Below are positions 20,840 to 37,566 of a stretch of DNA of 37,566 bases, piece by piece. The stretch spans positions 3,237 to 40,802 of the forward strand of contig DUBO01000002.1 in assembly GCA_012960245.1 (NCBI GenBank), given 5' to 3'. The DNA comes from Candidatus Binatota bacterium. GTDB lineage: Bacteria; Desulfobacterota; Binatia; UBA1149. The translations under genes were made by a program, and so were the position numbers. The notes under the pieces are model-generated. The model made no database searches, was not told where the DNA came from, and saw only the letters and a program-made list of their open reading frames with translations. Position 1 is the first letter of the stretch, and each line of letters starts with the position of its first letter.

Positions 20840-22048
20840 GTGCCGGGCGCAGCTATAGTTGTTTTTGCGTTGGCGCTCGCCGCCTACCTGCTTTTCTCGC
20901 CGAGGCTGGCGAAATCCTCCGACTGGAGTGCCACCGTCACGCCGCTTGCCTCCATCATGGGCAGCGGGTTTCTCGTCAGTGCACCCCTGCTGGCAGGAAT
21001 AGTCGGCAACCTGGCGCTCTTCTGCATGGCCGCACTGCTGGTACTCGCCTACCTGGTGGGCGGCGTGGTCCGTTTCAACATACGCTACTTCGAACCCGTG
21101 GAGGCCGACGGCCACGGGCCGGCCCAGTCGATAGCCTTCACATCACGCCTGGTGCTGGCGGGCGCCTATCTCATCTCGGTGAGCTACTACCTGCAGCTGC
21201 TCGCCGCGTTCGTGCTCTCCGCCCTGGGAAAAAATGACCAGCTGATCGCCCACGCGATCACCAGCACACTGCTGGTGACCATAGGCCTGATCGGCGCGTG
21301 GCGCGGACTGGCCCTGCTCGAAAAGGTCGAGAAGTACGCCATCGGACTTAACCTCGGCATTATCGGCGCGCTGATCGCCTCGTTGATCGTGTACAACTCC
21401 GGGCTGCTGGTAACAGGCGAATGGACGCTGGCGCCGGTTTCGTCGGTCATCGACTTCGCCGACTTCAGGGTGCTGCTGGGTCTGCTGATCGTCGTGCAGG
21501 GATTCGAAACATCGCGCTACCTGGGTGCCGGACATTCTGCCGAACAGAGGATCAGGACCATGCGTCGCGCGCAGCTGATTTCATCCGCGATCTACCTGAC
21601 CTTCATCGGCCTGGTCACCGTGCTGTTCCACGACGGCCTGGGCGCCGACGTGACCGCCATCATAGGCATGACGAGGCCGGTGGCCGTCATCCTGCCGCTT
21701 TTGTTGGCAGTGGCCGCCATCGGTAGCCAGTTCAGCGCGGCGGTGGCCGACAACGCCGGCGCCGGTGGACTCATCGAAGACATAACCCGCCACCGGCTGC
21801 CCATGCGCTACGCGTACCTGCTCATACTTGTGGTCACCCTGGCGATCACGTGGGAAACGGATGTGAACCAGATCATCGCCTACGCCTCGCGGGCCTTTGC
21901 CCTGTACTACTTCCTGCAAGGCGTCGTGGCGGTGGTGATGGCTTACAAGTTACGGGAGCTTCCCCACCGCGGCGCGCGGATGGCGGGCTACCTCGCGGTG
22001 TCGCTGGCCTGCCTGCTGGTCTTCGTACTCGGCCTGCCCGCCGAATAG
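20840..22048 (+). CDS. APC-superfamily-like permease (LeuT-fold?)
   Basis: A 402-residue inner-membrane protein with about 10-11 hydrophobic helices. The early segment IMGSGFLVSAPLLAGIVGN looks like the broken first helix of amino acid-polyamine-organocation transporters. The middle has FADFRVLLGLLIVVQGFETSRYLG. The GTG start is 4 nt after the VOC stop, with GAAGGA upstream. The substrate cannot be told from the sequence, and the family call rests on helix pattern, not on a diagnostic motif. Confidence 0.6.
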   Translation: MPGAAIVVFALALAAYLLFSPRLAKSSDWSATVTPLASIMGSGFLVSAPLLAGIVGNLALFCMAALLVLAYLVGGVVRFNIRYFEPVEADGHGPAQSIAFTSRLVLAGAYLISVSYYLQLLAAFVLSALGKNDQLIAHAITSTLLVTIGLIGAWRGLALLEKVEKYAIGLNLGIIGALIASLIVYNSGLLVTGEWTLAPVSSVIDFADFRVLLGLLIVVQGFETSRYLGAGHSAEQRIRTMRRAQLISSAIYLTFIGLVTVLFHDGLGADVTAIIGMTRPVAVILPLLLAVAAIGSQFSAAVADNAGAGGLIEDITRHRLPMRYAYLLILVVTLAITWETDVNQIIAYASRAFALYYFLQGVVAVVMAYKLRELPHRGARMAGYLAVSLACLLVFVLGLPAE

Positions 22049-22078: not shown

Positions 22079-22534
22079 TTAAGGCAGCGCTTCCCGCCCC
22101 GCGCACCAGCTGCGAACCCGTACCACGGAGATCCTCAAGAGCTGGGGCTCGGCTCGGAAGAGCGGTACCTCGTCGTACTGGGGGTACTTGGCCCGCAGGC
22201 CCTCGGCTACCTCCCCTATCTCGGGATCGCTCTGCGGGTGCCTTCCCTCTACCACCGCGGCACGACCATCCACCCGTAGCCACCACAGGCGACTCCAGTC
22301 TGCGTCGTAGTCATCGAGCAGAACGGCCACGGCCGGGTTCTTCCGAACATTGCGGACCCTGACAAGCTCACCGCCACTCTTGGGTTTGCCGTCGATGGGG
22401 GTCCATAAATCACCGCCGTGGCGGACGAACACGACGGGCACAAGGTGCGGGCTACCCGAGGGTCCGAGTGTGGCCAGGCGCGCAACCGGGTGGCGCTCCA
22501 GCAGTGATTCACAGATATCGACCGGTAGTTCCAC
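22079..22534 (-). CDS. PPOX-class (Rv0121-like, possibly F420-dependent) oxidoreductase
   Basis: A 151-residue split-barrel flavin/deazaflavin-binding protein. The GTG 22534 start has GGGAG 7 nt upstream; the longer frame to 22684 would overlap the divergent gene. Family marks are RHPVARLATLGPSGSPHLVPVVFV, the GGDLWTPIDGKPKSG segment and VRKNPAVAVLLDDYD. It resembles the TIGR03668 group, assigned to F420 use in Actinobacteria; cofactor use here is inference. It converges on the permease with a 30-nt gap. Confidence 0.78.
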   Translation of the reverse strand: MELPVDICESLLERHPVARLATLGPSGSPHLVPVVFVRHGGDLWTPIDGKPKSGGELVRVRNVRKNPAVAVLLDDYDADWSRLWWLRVDGRAAVVEGRHPQSDPEIGEVAEGLRAKYPQYDEVPLFRAEPQLLRISVVRVRSWCAGREALP

Positions 22535-22622
22535 GTCATTTCTCCCGCAGTCTGGACAAGGCCCGAACCTAGCACGACAATGGCCCCATGGCCCAGCCCG
22601 GTAGGGCCGAACAGGAGGAATC

Positions 22623-23105
22623 ATGGCGCGTATCAACGTTCCCGAAGGTGACGGCGAAGAGATCCCGAGACTGTTTTCCCTCAACCCCGATATGTTCGGG
22701 GCCGTAGCTACCTTCTCAACAGCGGTCTACGACAAAACCAGGCTACCCGTCCGCGTGCGGGAATTTGCGCGCATGCGGGTGGCTCAGATCAATGACTGCG
22801 GGGTTTGACTGGCCACGAGAGCCTCATCGTTGGTGGGGCAGGAAGACGTAGAGGGCCTGTACTGCTCGGTGCACGAGTACGCCGGCAACTCCGACTACAG
22901 CGAGCAGGAGAAGCTGGCGATAGAGTACGCCGAACGCTTCTGCCTGCAGCACGACACCCTGGACGAGGAGTTTTTTGAACGCCTGCGCGCGCAGTTCAGC
23001 GAGGCCGAGATCGTGGACCTGGCGGTCTGCTGCTCGATGTTCGTAGGCCTGGGCCGAATGCTGGCGGTGTTCGGTGTCGAGCAGGAAGAACCTATGCGAC
23101 TGTAA
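22623..23105 (+). CDS. AhpD/carboxymuconolactone-decarboxylase-like protein with in-frame TGA: probable selenoprotein
   Basis: Reading through one TGA (22806-22808) gives 160 residues in a single frame, from an ATG with AGGAGGA just upstream. Residues 41-61 (LPVRVREFARMRVAQINDCGV) and the following LATRASSLVG match CMD/AhpD-like proteins that carry a CxxC redox pair. Here the first Cys is residue 59 and the TGA is codon 62, exactly at the second Cys. The part after the TGA keeps the family pattern (SEQEKLAIEYAERF..., then VDLAVCCSMFVGLGRMLAVFGV) and codon use, with no other stop. A stem-loop of bSECIS form follows. Likely role: thiol/selenol redox or peroxide chemistry, not decarboxylation. 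A pseudogene or sequencing error is the alternative. selA, selB, selC and selD are not in this window and would have to exist elsewhere. Confidence 0.75.
22806..22839 (+). promoter_or_regulatory. Candidate bacterial SECIS element
   Basis: After the TGA (22806-22808) come 12 unpaired nt, then GCCTCATC (22821-22828) pairs fully with GGTGGGGC (22832-22839). The eight pairs include two G-U wobbles, and the apical loop is GTT (22829-22831). Known bacterial SECIS elements have a small apical loop with a G in its first two positions, 16-37 nt from the UGA; here the loop starts 20 nt after it with G. The stem lies inside the coding region, as in fdhF. Confidence 0.65.
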
Positions 23106-32642: not shown

Positions 32643-35600
32643 CTATAGCTCTCCGTTCGCGTCAGCGGAAGCCTTTGCCCTTGCGGGGGCCGGCTGGGCG
32701 GGCAGCGACAGGCCAGATACCGGCTTGCCTGGAGCCATCTTTTCGGACATCGCCTCCTGGGCATCACGATCGCAGTCCTCACCCTCGTCCGAAACGCCAT
32801 CGCCACAGTGTGGCGTCACACAGTTAGGCCGGCAGAAATTCGGCCGAGTCGCGCTGTTCATGTTCCCGTCGTCGCACTGCTCGCCGGCGTCCATGACACC
32901 ATCGCCACACCAGGACAGGCGGCAGTCGCTCCGGCAGGTGTCCGGGCTCACATCGCTTGAGGCATCGCCCGCGTCGCATTCTTCGACGCCGAGCCACACG
33001 TTACCGTCACCGCAATTAGCGTTGCTGCAATCAGACAGGCAAGCGTCGCTCTCGTCTATGTTGCCGTCGTCGCACTGCTCGAAATCGACCCACGCAAAGC
33101 CGTCACCGCAGGCCGCCGCCTCGCAGCTGGCAAGGCAGGCGTCGCTGTTGTCGGTGTTGCCGTCGTCGCAGGCCTCGCCCGTGTCGACCACGCTATCGCC
33201 GCAGACCGCCGTAGTGCAGTTCGTGCGACAGGCATCGGCCCTGTCGTTGTTGTTATCTGCACCCGAGTCGCAGGCCTCCACGTCGGCCTGTACGAATCCG
33301 TCCCCGCAGGAGGCCGACTCACAAGTGTCCAGGCAGGCGTCGCTGTTATCCGCGTTGCCGTCGTCGCAGGATTCGTTGGAATCGACCACGCCGTCGCCGC
33401 AGGAGAACGAGCTGCAGTCGGTCCTGCAGGAGTCTACCCTCTCGTTGCTGTTATCGACGCCCGCATCACAGGCCTCTACGTTAATCTGTACGAAACCGTC
33501 GCCGCAAGCCGCTGCTTCACAGCTCGAAAGACAGGCGTCGCTGTTGTCGCCGTTGCCATCGTCGCAGCTCTCGCCCGCATCGACCACGCCGTCGCCGCAG
33601 GATGAAAGGGTGCAGTCACTCCGGCAGGAGTCGGCATTCTCGTCGCTGTTATCGGCCCCCGCATCGCAGGCCTCTACATTAATCTGTACGAAACCATCGC
33701 CACATGAAGCCAACCGGCAGGTATCGAGACAGACGTCGCTGTCGTCGACATTGCCGTCGTCACAACTCTCGCCCGCGTCAACCACGCCATCGCCACAGGA
33801 TGAGATGCTGCAGTCGGTCCTGCAGGAGTCGGCATTCTCGTCGTTGTTACCGACACCCGCGTCGCAGGCTTCTACACCGATCTGCACGAAGCCATCGCCG
33901 CATGCAGCCACCAGGCAGCTGTCCAGGCAGGTGTCGTTGTTGCCCGCGTTACCATCGTCGCAACTCTCGCCCGCGTCGACCACGCCGTCGCCGCAGGACG
34001 GAAGGTTGCAGTCGCTCCGGCAGGAGTCGGCGTTGTCATCGCTGTTGTCAACGCCCGCGTCGCAGGCTTCAACCCCCACCTGCACGAAGCCGTCGCCGCA
34101 GCTGGCCGAGCGACAGTCGTTGAGGCAGGAATCTGAATTGCCAACGTTACCGTCATCGCAGGTTTCGCCTGAGTCGACCACGCCGTCGCCACAGGACGAA
34201 AGACTGCAGTCGCTCCGGCAGGAATCGCCCTGCGCGTCGGAGTTGGCTGCACCATCGTCGCAGGACTCTGTGCCCTGCTGGAGAAATCCATCGCCGCAGG
34301 AGGCTGCACGGCAGCTGTCGAGACAGGAGTCGCCGTTGTCGACGTTCCCGTCATCGCAGGTCTCGCCCGAATCGGTGACACCGTCGCCACACAAGGGCTG
34401 GGTGCAGTCGCTCCGGCAAGCGTCCGGCGTTTCATCGCTGTTAGCAACTCCCGCGTCGCAGTCTTCAACGCCCAGGCGCAACACGCCGTCGCCGCAGCTG
34501 GCCGGCTCGCAGGAGGAGAGACAGCCGTCGGAATCAGAAGAGTTGCCATCGTCGCAAAGCTCAGCGTCAGTCTGCACGTAGCCGTCGCCGCAGGAAGCCT
34601 CGCGGCAATTAGACAGACAGGAATCGGCTTCATCGGCGTTGCCGTCGTCGCAGGCCTCGCCCTCGTCAACGACTCCATCACCGCAGTTGGCCAACAGGCA
34701 GTCGCTGCGGCAGCCACCGGGGTTCGAGTTCGAGTTCAACTCACCGTTGTCGCACTGCTCTACGTCGATCTGCAGAAACCCATCGCCGCAGCCCGGCAAC
34801 GTGCAATTCGACAGGCAGTAGTCATTGTTGGAGGCATTGCCGTCGTCGCAGAACTCGCCGCCATCTACCACGCCGTCGCCACAGCTGGCCAGGGTGCAAT
34901 CACCGCGGCAGGAGTCTGACTTGTCGTCACTGTTGTCGGCACCCGCATCGCAAGCCTCGACTCCGCCCTGTACCAGGCCATCGCCGCAGAAGGCAACGCG
35001 GCAACCATCGGTGCAGGAGTCACTATTGTTGCTGTTACCGTCATCACAGCTCTCGCCGTTATCAGTCACGCCATCGCCGCAAAACGGCAACGTGCAATCA
35101 CTGCGACAAGTGTTCGACGCGGTGTCTGAGTTGGCCACGCGGAAGGGGCCGTACTGTCCGTCACCGCTGTCACACTGCTCGACGCCCTCCAACCTAAAAC
35201 CATCGCCACAGGTCGCCACACTGCAGTCCTGCAGGCAGGCGTCACCGTCGTAGCTGTTGCCGTCGTCGCATGCTTCGTTGGAATCAACCACGCCGTCACC
35301 GCAAACCGACACCGTGCAATCGGTCCTGCACGAGTTGGGAACGGTATCGTTGTTGGCCACACCCTCATCGCAGCTTTCCACGTCCAATTGGGTAAAGCCG
35401 TCGCCACAGCTGGCGGCTTCGCAGCTCGCCAGGCAGGCATCACCGTTGTCATCGTTGCCATCGTCGCAGCTTTCGTTGCTGTCCGTTACGCCGTCTCCGC
35501 AGCTTGCCAGCGTGCAATCATTGCGACAGGCGTCCGCAAGCTCGTTGCTGTTGTCGGCGCCCGCGTCGCAGGCTTCGCCGCCCTGCACGAATCCGTCGCC

Positions 35601-37566
35601 GCATGAGGCTGCGTCACAATTGTCGAGGCAAGCGTCGCCGTTATCCGTGTTACCGTCGTCGCAGGCCTCGCCGGCATCGGACACGCCGTCACCGCAGGAA
35701 GGCAAACTGCAATCGCTGCGGCAGAGGTCGGCCAATTCGTCGCTGTTATCCACGCCCGCATCGCAGGCTTCCAGATCAAGCTGGACAAAACCGTCGCCGC
35801 AACTGGCCGCTACACAAGTAGCCAGGCAGGCATCACCGTTGTCGGCGTTTCCATCGTCGCAGTTCTCGTTGGCGTCGATTACTCCATCACCGCAGCTGGC
35901 CGCCGTGCAATCACCGCGGCAAGCGTCAGCCTGCTCGTCACTGTTGGCCACGCCCGCGTCGCAAGCTTCTACGTCAAGCTGGACAAAACCGTCGCCGCAA
36001 CCCGCCGTTTCACAAGTAACCAGGCAAGCGTCACTGTTGTCGGCATTGCCATCGTCGCAGCTCTCGTTGCTGTCTGTTACCCCGTCGCCGCAGCTGGCCG
36101 CCGTGCAATCATTGCGACAGGCATCTGACTGCTCATCGCTGTTGTTGACGCCCGCGTCGCAGGCTTCTACGTCAAGCTGGACAAAACCGTCGCCGCAACC
36201 GGCTGTTTCACAAGTAGCCAGACAGGAATCACTGTTGTCAGCGTTTCCGTCGTCACAGCTCTCGTTGCTGTCTGTTACCCCATCGCCGCAATTCGCCAGC
36301 GTGCAATCATTGCGACAAGCATCTGACTGCTCATCGCTGTTGTTGACGCCCGCGTCGCAGGCTTCTACGTCGGCTTGCACAAAACCGTCGCCGCAACCGG
36401 CTGTTTCACAAGTAGCCAGGCACGCATCGCCGTTGTCAGCGTTGCCGTCGTCACAGCTCTCGCCCGCGTCGACCACGCCGTCGCCACAGCCAGCCAGAGT
36501 GCAGTTGTTGCGGCAGGCGTCCACCTGCCGATCGCTGTTAAGAACTCCACCGTCGCAGGCTTCTACCTCGGCTTGCACAAAACCGTCGCCGCAGCTCGCG
36601 ACTTCGCAGTTAGCAAGGCAGGCATCGCCGTTATTAGCGTTCCCATCGTCGCAGCTCTCGCCCGCGTCGACCACGCCGTCACCGCAGCTGGCCAGCGCGC
36701 AATCGATCCTGCAGGAGTCAGCGTTGTTGTCACTGTTATCAACGCCAGCGTCACAGGCTTCAACACCTTTTTGCACGAAACCATCGCCGCAGGAGGCCAG
36801 CTCACAGCTGGCCAGGCAGGTGCCCAGGTTGTGGCTACTGGCATCGTCGCAGCTCTCGCCCGCGTCGACCACGCCGTCGCCACAGCTGGCCAGCGCGCAA
36901 TCGTTGCGGCAGGCGTCGGCCTGCTCGTCGTTATTGTCTGCACCCGCGTCGCAGGCTTCTACTTCAATCTGGACGAAACCGTCGCCGCAGAAAGCAGGCC
37001 GGCAGCTGACCAGGCAAGCATCAAAGTTGTCGGCGTTGCCATCGTCGCAAATCTCGCCCACATCGGCCACGCCATCACCGCAGGAAGCAGGCTGGCAGTC
37101 AGTCCGACAGGAGTTGGGCAGCAGGTCGCTGTTGGCCATGCCCCTGTCGCAGCTTTCTACATCCAGCTGGACGAAGCCGTCGCCGCAGGAAGCAGCCTCG
37201 CAGCTCGAGAGGCAAGAATCGCTGTTGTCGGAGTTGCTGTCGTCGCAGCTCTCGTCGCTGTCTGTTACCCCATCGCCACAACTGGACGTCGTGCAGTCGC
37301 TACGGCAGGCGTCGGCCTGGGTATTGCTGTTATCTACACCAGCGTCACAAGCTTCTACGCCGGCTTGCACAAAGCCATCGCCGCAAGCCGCGGCCTCGCA
37401 GTTAGCCAGGCAGGAATCGCTGTTGTCTAGGTCGCCGTCGTCGCAAACTTCACCCCCGTCGACCACGCCATCGCCGCACATCGGCAATGTGCAATCGCTA
37501 CGGCACTGGTCGGCGAGAAGGTCGCTGTTGAGCACCCCGCTGTCGCACTGTTCGATCCTGGCCTGG
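32643..37566 (-). CDS. Giant CGDG cysteine-rich repeat protein (DUF4215 type), N-terminus beyond the window
   Basis: An open frame runs from the window edge to a TAG at 32643, over 1640 residues; the start is outside. It is built of about 48 modules beginning CGDG (one CGDS), alternating a 31-residue A type (CGDGVVDAGESCDDGNADNSDACL...C) and a 35-residue B type (CGDGFVQ...VEACDAGVDNSDE...DACRNDC). Each has four Cys, so nearly 200 cysteines, with Asp/Asn-rich loops (DDGNxDNxD) that look able to bind calcium. The A+B period is 66 residues (198 bp). The last 35 residues are Pro/Ala/Ser-rich and show no sortase, PEP-CTERM or MYXO-CTERM anchor. It is presumably a secreted or surface, disulfide-linked protein. 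Matches the 'myxococcus cysteine-rich repeat' / DUF4215 pattern. Confidence 0.9.
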   Translation of the reverse strand, partial: QARIEQCDSGVLNSDLLADQCRSDCTLPMCGDGVVDGGEVCDDGDLDNSDSCLANCEAAACGDGFVQAGVEACDAGVDNSNTQADACRSDCTTSSCGDGVTDSDESCDDSNSDNSDSCLSSCEAASCGDGFVQLDVESCDRGMANSDLLPNSCRTDCQPASCGDGVADVGEICDDGNADNFDACLVSCRPAFCGDGFVQIEVEACDAGADNNDEQADACRNDCALASCGDGVVDAGESCDDASSHNLGTCLASCELASCGDGFVQKGVEACDAGVDNSDNNADSCRIDCALASCGDGVVDAGESCDDGNANNGDACLANCEVASCGDGFVQAEVEACDGGVLNSDRQVDACRNNCTLAGCGDGVVDAGESCDDGNADNGDACLATCETAGCGDGFVQADVEACDAGVNNSDEQSDACRNDCTLANCGDGVTDSNESCDDGNADNSDSCLATCETAGCGDGFVQLDVEACDAGVNNSDEQSDACRNDCTAASCGDGVTDSNESCDDGNADNSDACLVTCETAGCGDGFVQLDVEACDAGVANSDEQADACRGDCTAASCGDGVIDANENCDDGNADNGDACLATCVAASCGDGFVQLDLEACDAGVDNSDELADLCRSDCSLPSCGDGVSDAGEACDDGNTDNGDACLDNCDAASCGDGFVQGGEACDAGADNSNELADACRNDCTLASCGDGVTDSNESCDDGNDDNGDACLASCEAASCGDGFTQLDVESCDEGVANNDTVPNSCRTDCTVSVCGDGVVDSNEACDDGNSYDGDACLQDCSVATCGDGFRLEGVEQCDSGDGQYGPFRVANSDTASNTCRSDCTLPFCGDGVTDNGESCDDGNSNNSDSCTDGCRVAFCGDGLVQGGVEACDAGADNSDDKSDSCRGDCTLASCGDGVVDGGEFCDDGNASNNDYCLSNCTLPGCGDGFLQIDVEQCDNGELNSNSNPGGCRSDCLLANCGDGVVDEGEACDDGNADEADSCLSNCREASCGDGYVQTDAELCDDGNSSDSDGCLSSCEPASCGDGVLRLGVEDCDAGVANSDETPDACRSDCTQPLCGDGVTDSGETCDDGNVDNGDSCLDSCRAASCGDGFLQQGTESCDDGAANSDAQGDSCRSDCSLSSCGDGVVDSGETCDDGNVGNSDSCLNDCRSASCGDGFVQVGVEACDAGVDNSDDNADSCRSDCNLPSCGDGVVDAGESCDDGNAGNNDTCLDSCLVAACGDGFVQIGVEACDAGVGNNDENADSCRTDCSISSCGDGVVDAGESCDDGNVDDSDVCLDTCRLASCGDGFVQINVEACDAGADNSDENADSCRSDCTLSSCGDGVVDAGESCDDGNGDNSDACLSSCEAAACGDGFVQINVEACDAGVDNSNERVDSCRTDCSSFSCGDGVVDSNESCDDGNADNSDACLDTCESASCGDGFVQADVEACDSGADNNNDRADACRTNCTTAVCGDSVVDTGEACDDGNTDNSDACLASCEAAACGDGFAWVDFEQCDDGNIDESDACLSDCSNANCGDGNVWLGVEECDAGDASSDVSPDTCRSDCRLSWCGDGVMDAGEQCDDGNMNSATRPNFCRPNCVTPHCGDGVSDEGEDCDRDAQEAMSEKMAPGKPVSGLSLPAQPAPARAKASADANGEL

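Follow-up and report, generated by a model that had tools for sequence, protein, structure and literature searches.

A probable CMD/AhpD-like selenoprotein with Sec at its active site, encoded in the genome of a Binatota bacterium

The stretch of DNA that was analysed (37,566 nucleotides in length, and referred to here as the window) derives from a draft genome of Candidatus Binatota (60 contigs, 2.8 Mb, 96% complete), and contains a short reading frame with a single internal TGA codon. The features of that locus, together with its divergent neighbour, are as follows:

22623..23105, + strand: predicted CMD/AhpD-like selenoprotein gene, 160 amino acids with Sec62, one internal TGA
22806..22808, + strand: putative UGA Sec codon (codon 62), at the second position of C-x-x-U, in a column aligned with homologues
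22613..22618, + strand: Shine-Dalgarno site AGGAGG, upstream of the ATG at 22623, identified from the sequence
22761..22820, + strand: predicted active-site region with Glu47, Cys59, Sec62 and Arg66, from conservation and an alignment with PA0269
22821..22839, + strand: bSECIS-like hairpin with an 8-bp stem and a GTT loop, from covariation over 22 distinct sequences
22079..22534, - strand: PNPOx-fold (PPOX) protein, divergent neighbour, from PF01243

The TGA at 22806-22808 is the sole in-frame stop within 22623-23105, and the same frame then continues to a TAA at 23103-23105; when the TGA is read as Sec, a 160-residue product containing the motif NDCGVULATR is obtained. That product scores 25.5 bits against the Pfam CMD model (PF02627), for which the gathering cut-off is 23, and is thereby placed in the CMD family. 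A sequence-only reading of this DNA had described a lone TGA at codon 62 with both halves in one frame, a family pattern retained on either side of it, and a strong Shine-Dalgarno site ahead of the ATG, and each of those observations was reproduced. A standard annotation would either end the gene at codon 62 or label it a pseudogene.

A search of 193 related genomes, conducted with a homologue threshold of E 1e-10, recovered a homologue in 46 genomes of the same class (Binatia), and a TGA-bearing one in 41 of those 46. In an alignment of 50 Binatia homologues, the codon-62 column is occupied by TGA in 45 and by a Cys codon (TGC) in five, while ten plasmid-borne Cys homologues from Actinomycetota and Pseudomonadota also carry TGC at that position. 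Homologues that lack the TGA thus display Cys at column 62, as the sequence-only reading had anticipated, and the extra stops or frameshifts that it had named as grounds for abandoning its proposal were absent from the relatives, which carry the same TGA instead. The UGA form is therefore conserved in other organisms, as membership among bacterial selenoproteins requires. The closest of these relatives is from the same genus (contig DBZX01000025.1 of the record 'bacterium UBP10_UBA1149', in which UBP10 denotes the candidate phylum Binatota); its protein shares 95% identity with that of the window, its gene keeps the TGA, and both the Shine-Dalgarno site and 73 bp of upstream sequence are retained. 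Other CMD-domain genes in the window genome (on its contigs C25 and C16) do not contain a TGA.

Two further observations were made among these homologues. In one of them (L048, G138:C25:26374-26802), the first Cys has been lost (RSSAKPU) and a lone Sec replaces the Cys-Sec pair; the TGA is kept, along with an 8-bp hairpin that pairs perfectly. In addition, the genomes of one genus (g18; G021, G027, G034, G065, G080, G085 and G099) each encode four Sec-CMD paralogues with one TGA per paralogue, representing an expansion of this type of selenoprotein within the class.

The arrangement of genes around the window gene differs from that in its closest relative. In UBA1149 a 3.8-kb block (L057 2074-5820) separates the PNPOx gene from the CMD gene, and is absent from the window; translations of that block, from which its genes were named by reading, correspond to an FAD oxidoreductase, a nitroreductase-like protein and a luciferase-like protein. 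Downstream of the CMD gene, the window encodes an amidohydrolase and a luciferase-like protein on the other strand, and a comparison of 6 kb of the corresponding UBA1149 sequence found no similarity to the window. Taken together, the block found only in UBA1149 and the dissimilar downstream sequences indicate a variable site, and because the neighbours differ between the two species the CMD gene appears to behave as its own unit. A conserved PPOX-CMD gene pair was accordingly rejected, in view of the 3.8 kb of other genes lying between its two members in UBA1149. Elsewhere in the window, a 402-residue protein that is probably membrane-bound (20840-22048, + strand) has no Pfam match and is well conserved in UBA1149, and a protein of more than 1600 residues with many Cys-rich repeats (CGDG..D.GE.CDDGN; 32643-37565, - strand) runs off the window edge.

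An 8-bp stem with a GTT loop, beginning 12 nt past the TGA, had also been pointed out in the sequence-only reading, and its coordinates were confirmed: the stem arms occupy 22821-22828 and 22832-22839 (two of the eight pairs being G-U), with the loop at 22829-22831 and thus an apical loop located 20 nt 3' of the UGA. The two strands of the window together contain 892 TGA trinucleotides, of which only two precede eight pairs in exactly such geometry; the second of these is followed by just two open codons, and a long frame on both sides is found solely at 22806. The stability of the isolated 19-nt hairpin is -9.9 kcal/mol, as compared with -4.0 +/- 1.6 for 20,000 synonymous recodings that leave the peptide unchanged, of which 0.09% are equally or more stable. 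When a 48-nt stretch is folded alone, its minimum-energy structure is a different, competing fold (-11.5), and the case for the hairpin therefore rests on its conservation rather than on a single fold.

That conservation was assessed in an alignment of 22 distinct sequences that is free of gaps over the 48 nt from the TGA; a distant Sec group of the NGCPYU/NGCPFU type (12 rows) and one additional sequence (L079), in which the downstream sequence differs, stand outside this analysis. Across the 22 sequences, 92.6% of the cells of an 8-bp stem at columns 16-23/27-34 are paired (versus 34-49% when the stem is slid), compensatory changes on both sides are observed in seven of the eight pairs (62 compensatory cells), and the covariation score is 0.864, versus 0.273 for shuffled alignments and at most 0.171 for slid stems. 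RNAalifold, run with no structure supplied, recovers the hairpin with seven of its eight pairs. The loop is GGC in most sequences and GTT in the window genus, and the hairpin is absent from Cys homologues, in which between zero and five of the eight stem pairs are formed.

Published constraints on bSECIS elements call for a loop of 3-9 nt with a G in its first two positions, a stem of 4-16 bp, a distance of 16-37 nt between UGA and loop, and a minimum free energy of -7.5 or below. The window hairpin lies within all of these (8-bp stem, GTT, 20 nt, and -9.9 kcal/mol for the hairpin alone), such that comparison with a bSECIS model, a check that the sequence-only reading had proposed, gave agreement in addition to a covarying stem. 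An Rfam scan of the region returned no match for the hairpin, as would be expected given that bacterial SECIS elements do not form a single family, and the stem, with its two G-U pairs, went unreported in an automatic search for inverted repeats.

The same genome encodes the machinery for Sec insertion. A tRNA-Sec gene (selC) with anticodon TCA is found on contig C23 (69.2 bits, over its cut-off), and the genes for SelA (531.6 bits), SelB (355.8 bits, with both pieces present) and SelD (350.4 bits) are adjacent to one another on a different contig (C50, 190015-194340). All four of the genes that the sequence-only reading had listed for a search (selA, selB, selC and selD) are therefore present. 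The SelD gene (L053, G000:C50:193411-194340) contains an in-frame TGA of its own, followed by a hairpin with a GTC loop.

The combination of Sec machinery, a retained TGA, a Cys-bearing column in homologues and a covarying hairpin sustains the original proposal of a probable selenoprotein, and the window gene very probably encodes a small redox protein with Sec at its active site. Of the competing explanations for the TGA, the least implausible (although itself very improbable) is that a Cys-type CMD gene has acquired a nonsense mutation, which would leave either a pseudogene or a functional product of 61 residues. Two observations lean toward that explanation: (i) the dN/dS ratio between the window gene and its UBA1149 counterpart is 0.385 after the TGA and 0 before it, against 0.17-0.22 for neighbouring genes, a comparison that draws on 12 differing codons and is only weakly informative; and (ii) the gene is missing from a third genome of the same genus (G002), in which SelB is present and a search for the TGA form of the CMD gene was negative. 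Against it, the TGA occurs in two species and in 45 of the 50 aligned Binatia homologues, never at another column and with no further stop, the downstream hairpin covaries, and Sec machinery is encoded; moreover, in a protein of 61 residues both the second redox residue and most of the fold would be missing.

Even less probable is a decoding of the TGA as Trp or as another amino acid, either through a genome-wide reassignment or through readthrough independent of SelB. An open frame, considered by itself, would be compatible with such decoding, but TGA is the normal terminator of 12 of the 17 genes in the window, which indicates that there has been no genome-wide change of code; furthermore, the residue aligned with the TGA is Cys, and the encoded tRNA-Sec bears the anticodon TCA. 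A sequencing or assembly error at a true TGC or TGT codon can be dismissed almost entirely: although the UBA1149 sequence comes from a metagenome assembly and the window genome is a draft in 60 contigs, the same TGA appears in that separate assembly (96% identical in DNA, with other substitutions present) and in distant genomes as well.

For a selenoprotein of this kind, the hairpin past UGA-62 would be bound by SelB carrying Sec-tRNA(Sec), itself made by SelA with selenophosphate supplied by SelD, and Sec would be inserted at UGA-62 in place of termination. The mature protein would then present a C59-G-V-U62 redox pair with Glu47 close by, as in AhpD, and with Sec standing in for the second, relay-linked cysteine. 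The most likely chemistry would be thiol/selenol redox exchange through a Cys-Sec selenylsulfide, by which either a peroxide or other electrophile might be reduced, or thiol-disulfide exchange with a partner might be carried out.

The conservation of the active site is consistent with that scheme. Among 17 relatives (with TGA read as C), column 62 is invariant and the conservation of E47, C59 and R66 is 90% or higher, and Glu47, Cys59, Sec62 and Arg66 align on Glu36, Cys48, Cys51 and His55 of PA0269, an AhpD-like protein from Pseudomonas aeruginosa (2o4d/2ijc) that displays weak peroxidase activity. The relay of PA0269 consists of Glu36, Cys48, Tyr50, Cys51 and His55, of which both Cys residues and the His are described as invariant in the family. 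While the window protein possesses counterparts of Glu36, Cys48 and Cys51 (the last as Sec rather than Cys), Arg66 is found where the AhpD peroxidase site would have a His (four positions beyond the second Cys), and peroxidase activity via the AhpD relay is therefore not assured. Arg also occupies that position in most relatives, whether of the Sec or Cys type. A family profile matches the PA0269-type structures 2ijc/2o4d best (9e-21), and an AlphaFold prediction from two sequences, with a pLDDT of 39, was set aside. From the sequence, we infer a CMD/AhpD-fold thiol/selenol redox protein, either peroxidase-like or a reductase, in which C59 and U62 would form a Cys-Sec redox pair; the prospects for and against a peroxidase-like activity appear evenly balanced.

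A less favoured but still credible alternative is that the selenoprotein is not a peroxidase but a CMD-fold enzyme that depends on Sec to reduce an aromatic, steroid-like or halogenated compound. The CMD fold does include the debrominase Bmp8 (6ohi, matched by the profile at 1.7e-11), several of the nearest Cys relatives are located beside genes for steroid or aromatic catabolism, and the relay His is replaced by Arg; conversely, the match to PA0269 is much stronger, and the neighbouring genes of the two species are unlike one another.

Selenoproteins of this general kind have been recognized for some time. CMD-like (PF02627) and AhpD-like (TIGR01926) proteins with a CxxU motif were predicted in the Sargasso Sea and GOS surveys (PMC1088965, PMC2398784), in agreement with what the sequence-only reading had said of AhpD-like proteins from marine metagenomes; such predictions go back to 2005, and a 2026 review (PMC13188914) includes them. 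As judged from their descriptions, those proteins share with the window protein the PF02627 domain, Sec as the second residue of CxxU, and a SECIS element right past the codon. The window protein nonetheless falls short of several named subfamilies: it scores 37.5 bits against the peroxidase-related TIGR01926 (cut-off 81.8), and 20.6 bits against the 357-residue model NF041238 (cut-off 175), an AhpD-related (seleno)protein with a CFYUT motif that similarly places CxxU in an AhpD-like domain. Its top NCBIfam match is the YciW-related (seleno)protein NF053654, GroundWater_YciW (E 2.7e-13), which also matches all 17 of the relatives tested; however, at 50.1 bits versus a cut-off of 310, the window protein lies outside that equivalog. 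A literature search for Binatota and selenoprotein together found no paper, with a groundwater MAG survey that the 2026 review mentions, and that may include Binatota, standing outside that search. Although proteins of this kind are known, the window protein and its numerous Binatia relatives appear to be undescribed. The suggestion that a CxxU form beside a PPOX gene might be new in this lineage appears to hold for the member and its lineage, and fails for the PPOX association, which is not conserved, and for the CxxU type.

A tree constructed with the Sec/Cys column masked grouped the window protein with Cys forms from Streptomyces, Nonomuraea, Embleya and sphingomonads (support 99/92), and not with the other Sec forms of Binatia. 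Those Cys-type proteins (from Streptomyces, Nonomuraea, Embleya, Sphingobium and Novosphingobium) are 36-38% identical to the window protein and have a similar pattern, REFxxxRxRxAQINxCxxCxxxR, but carry TGC for TGA and lack the hairpin. A single clade of all Sec forms was rejected (p-AU 9.7e-6), as was a single clade of the near Sec group (p-AU 0.027). Because long branches meet in the tree, the topology is taken as a sign of repeated exchange between Sec and Cys, whether by gain or by loss. It is rather unlikely, though conceivable, that within the genus of UBA1149 a CMD enzyme of the Cys type associated with steroid or aromatic catabolism acquired Sec independently of the other Sec-CMD lineages of Binatia (or that Sec was kept there while its relatives lost it), and that Cys59-Sec62 together with Arg66 would reduce an organic substrate rather than peroxide.

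The window protein would thus represent a new, divergent branch of the Sec-CMD/AhpD selenoproteins, with its nearest kin among Cys-type CMD proteins. Sec appears at the identical active-site position in most Binatia genomes that bear a homologue, and a single genome may hold as many as four paralogues, whereas related Cys versions are found elsewhere; these Sec forms and their Cys relatives would accordingly provide a natural Cys/Sec set in which the benefit of selenium within the CMD fold may be addressed.
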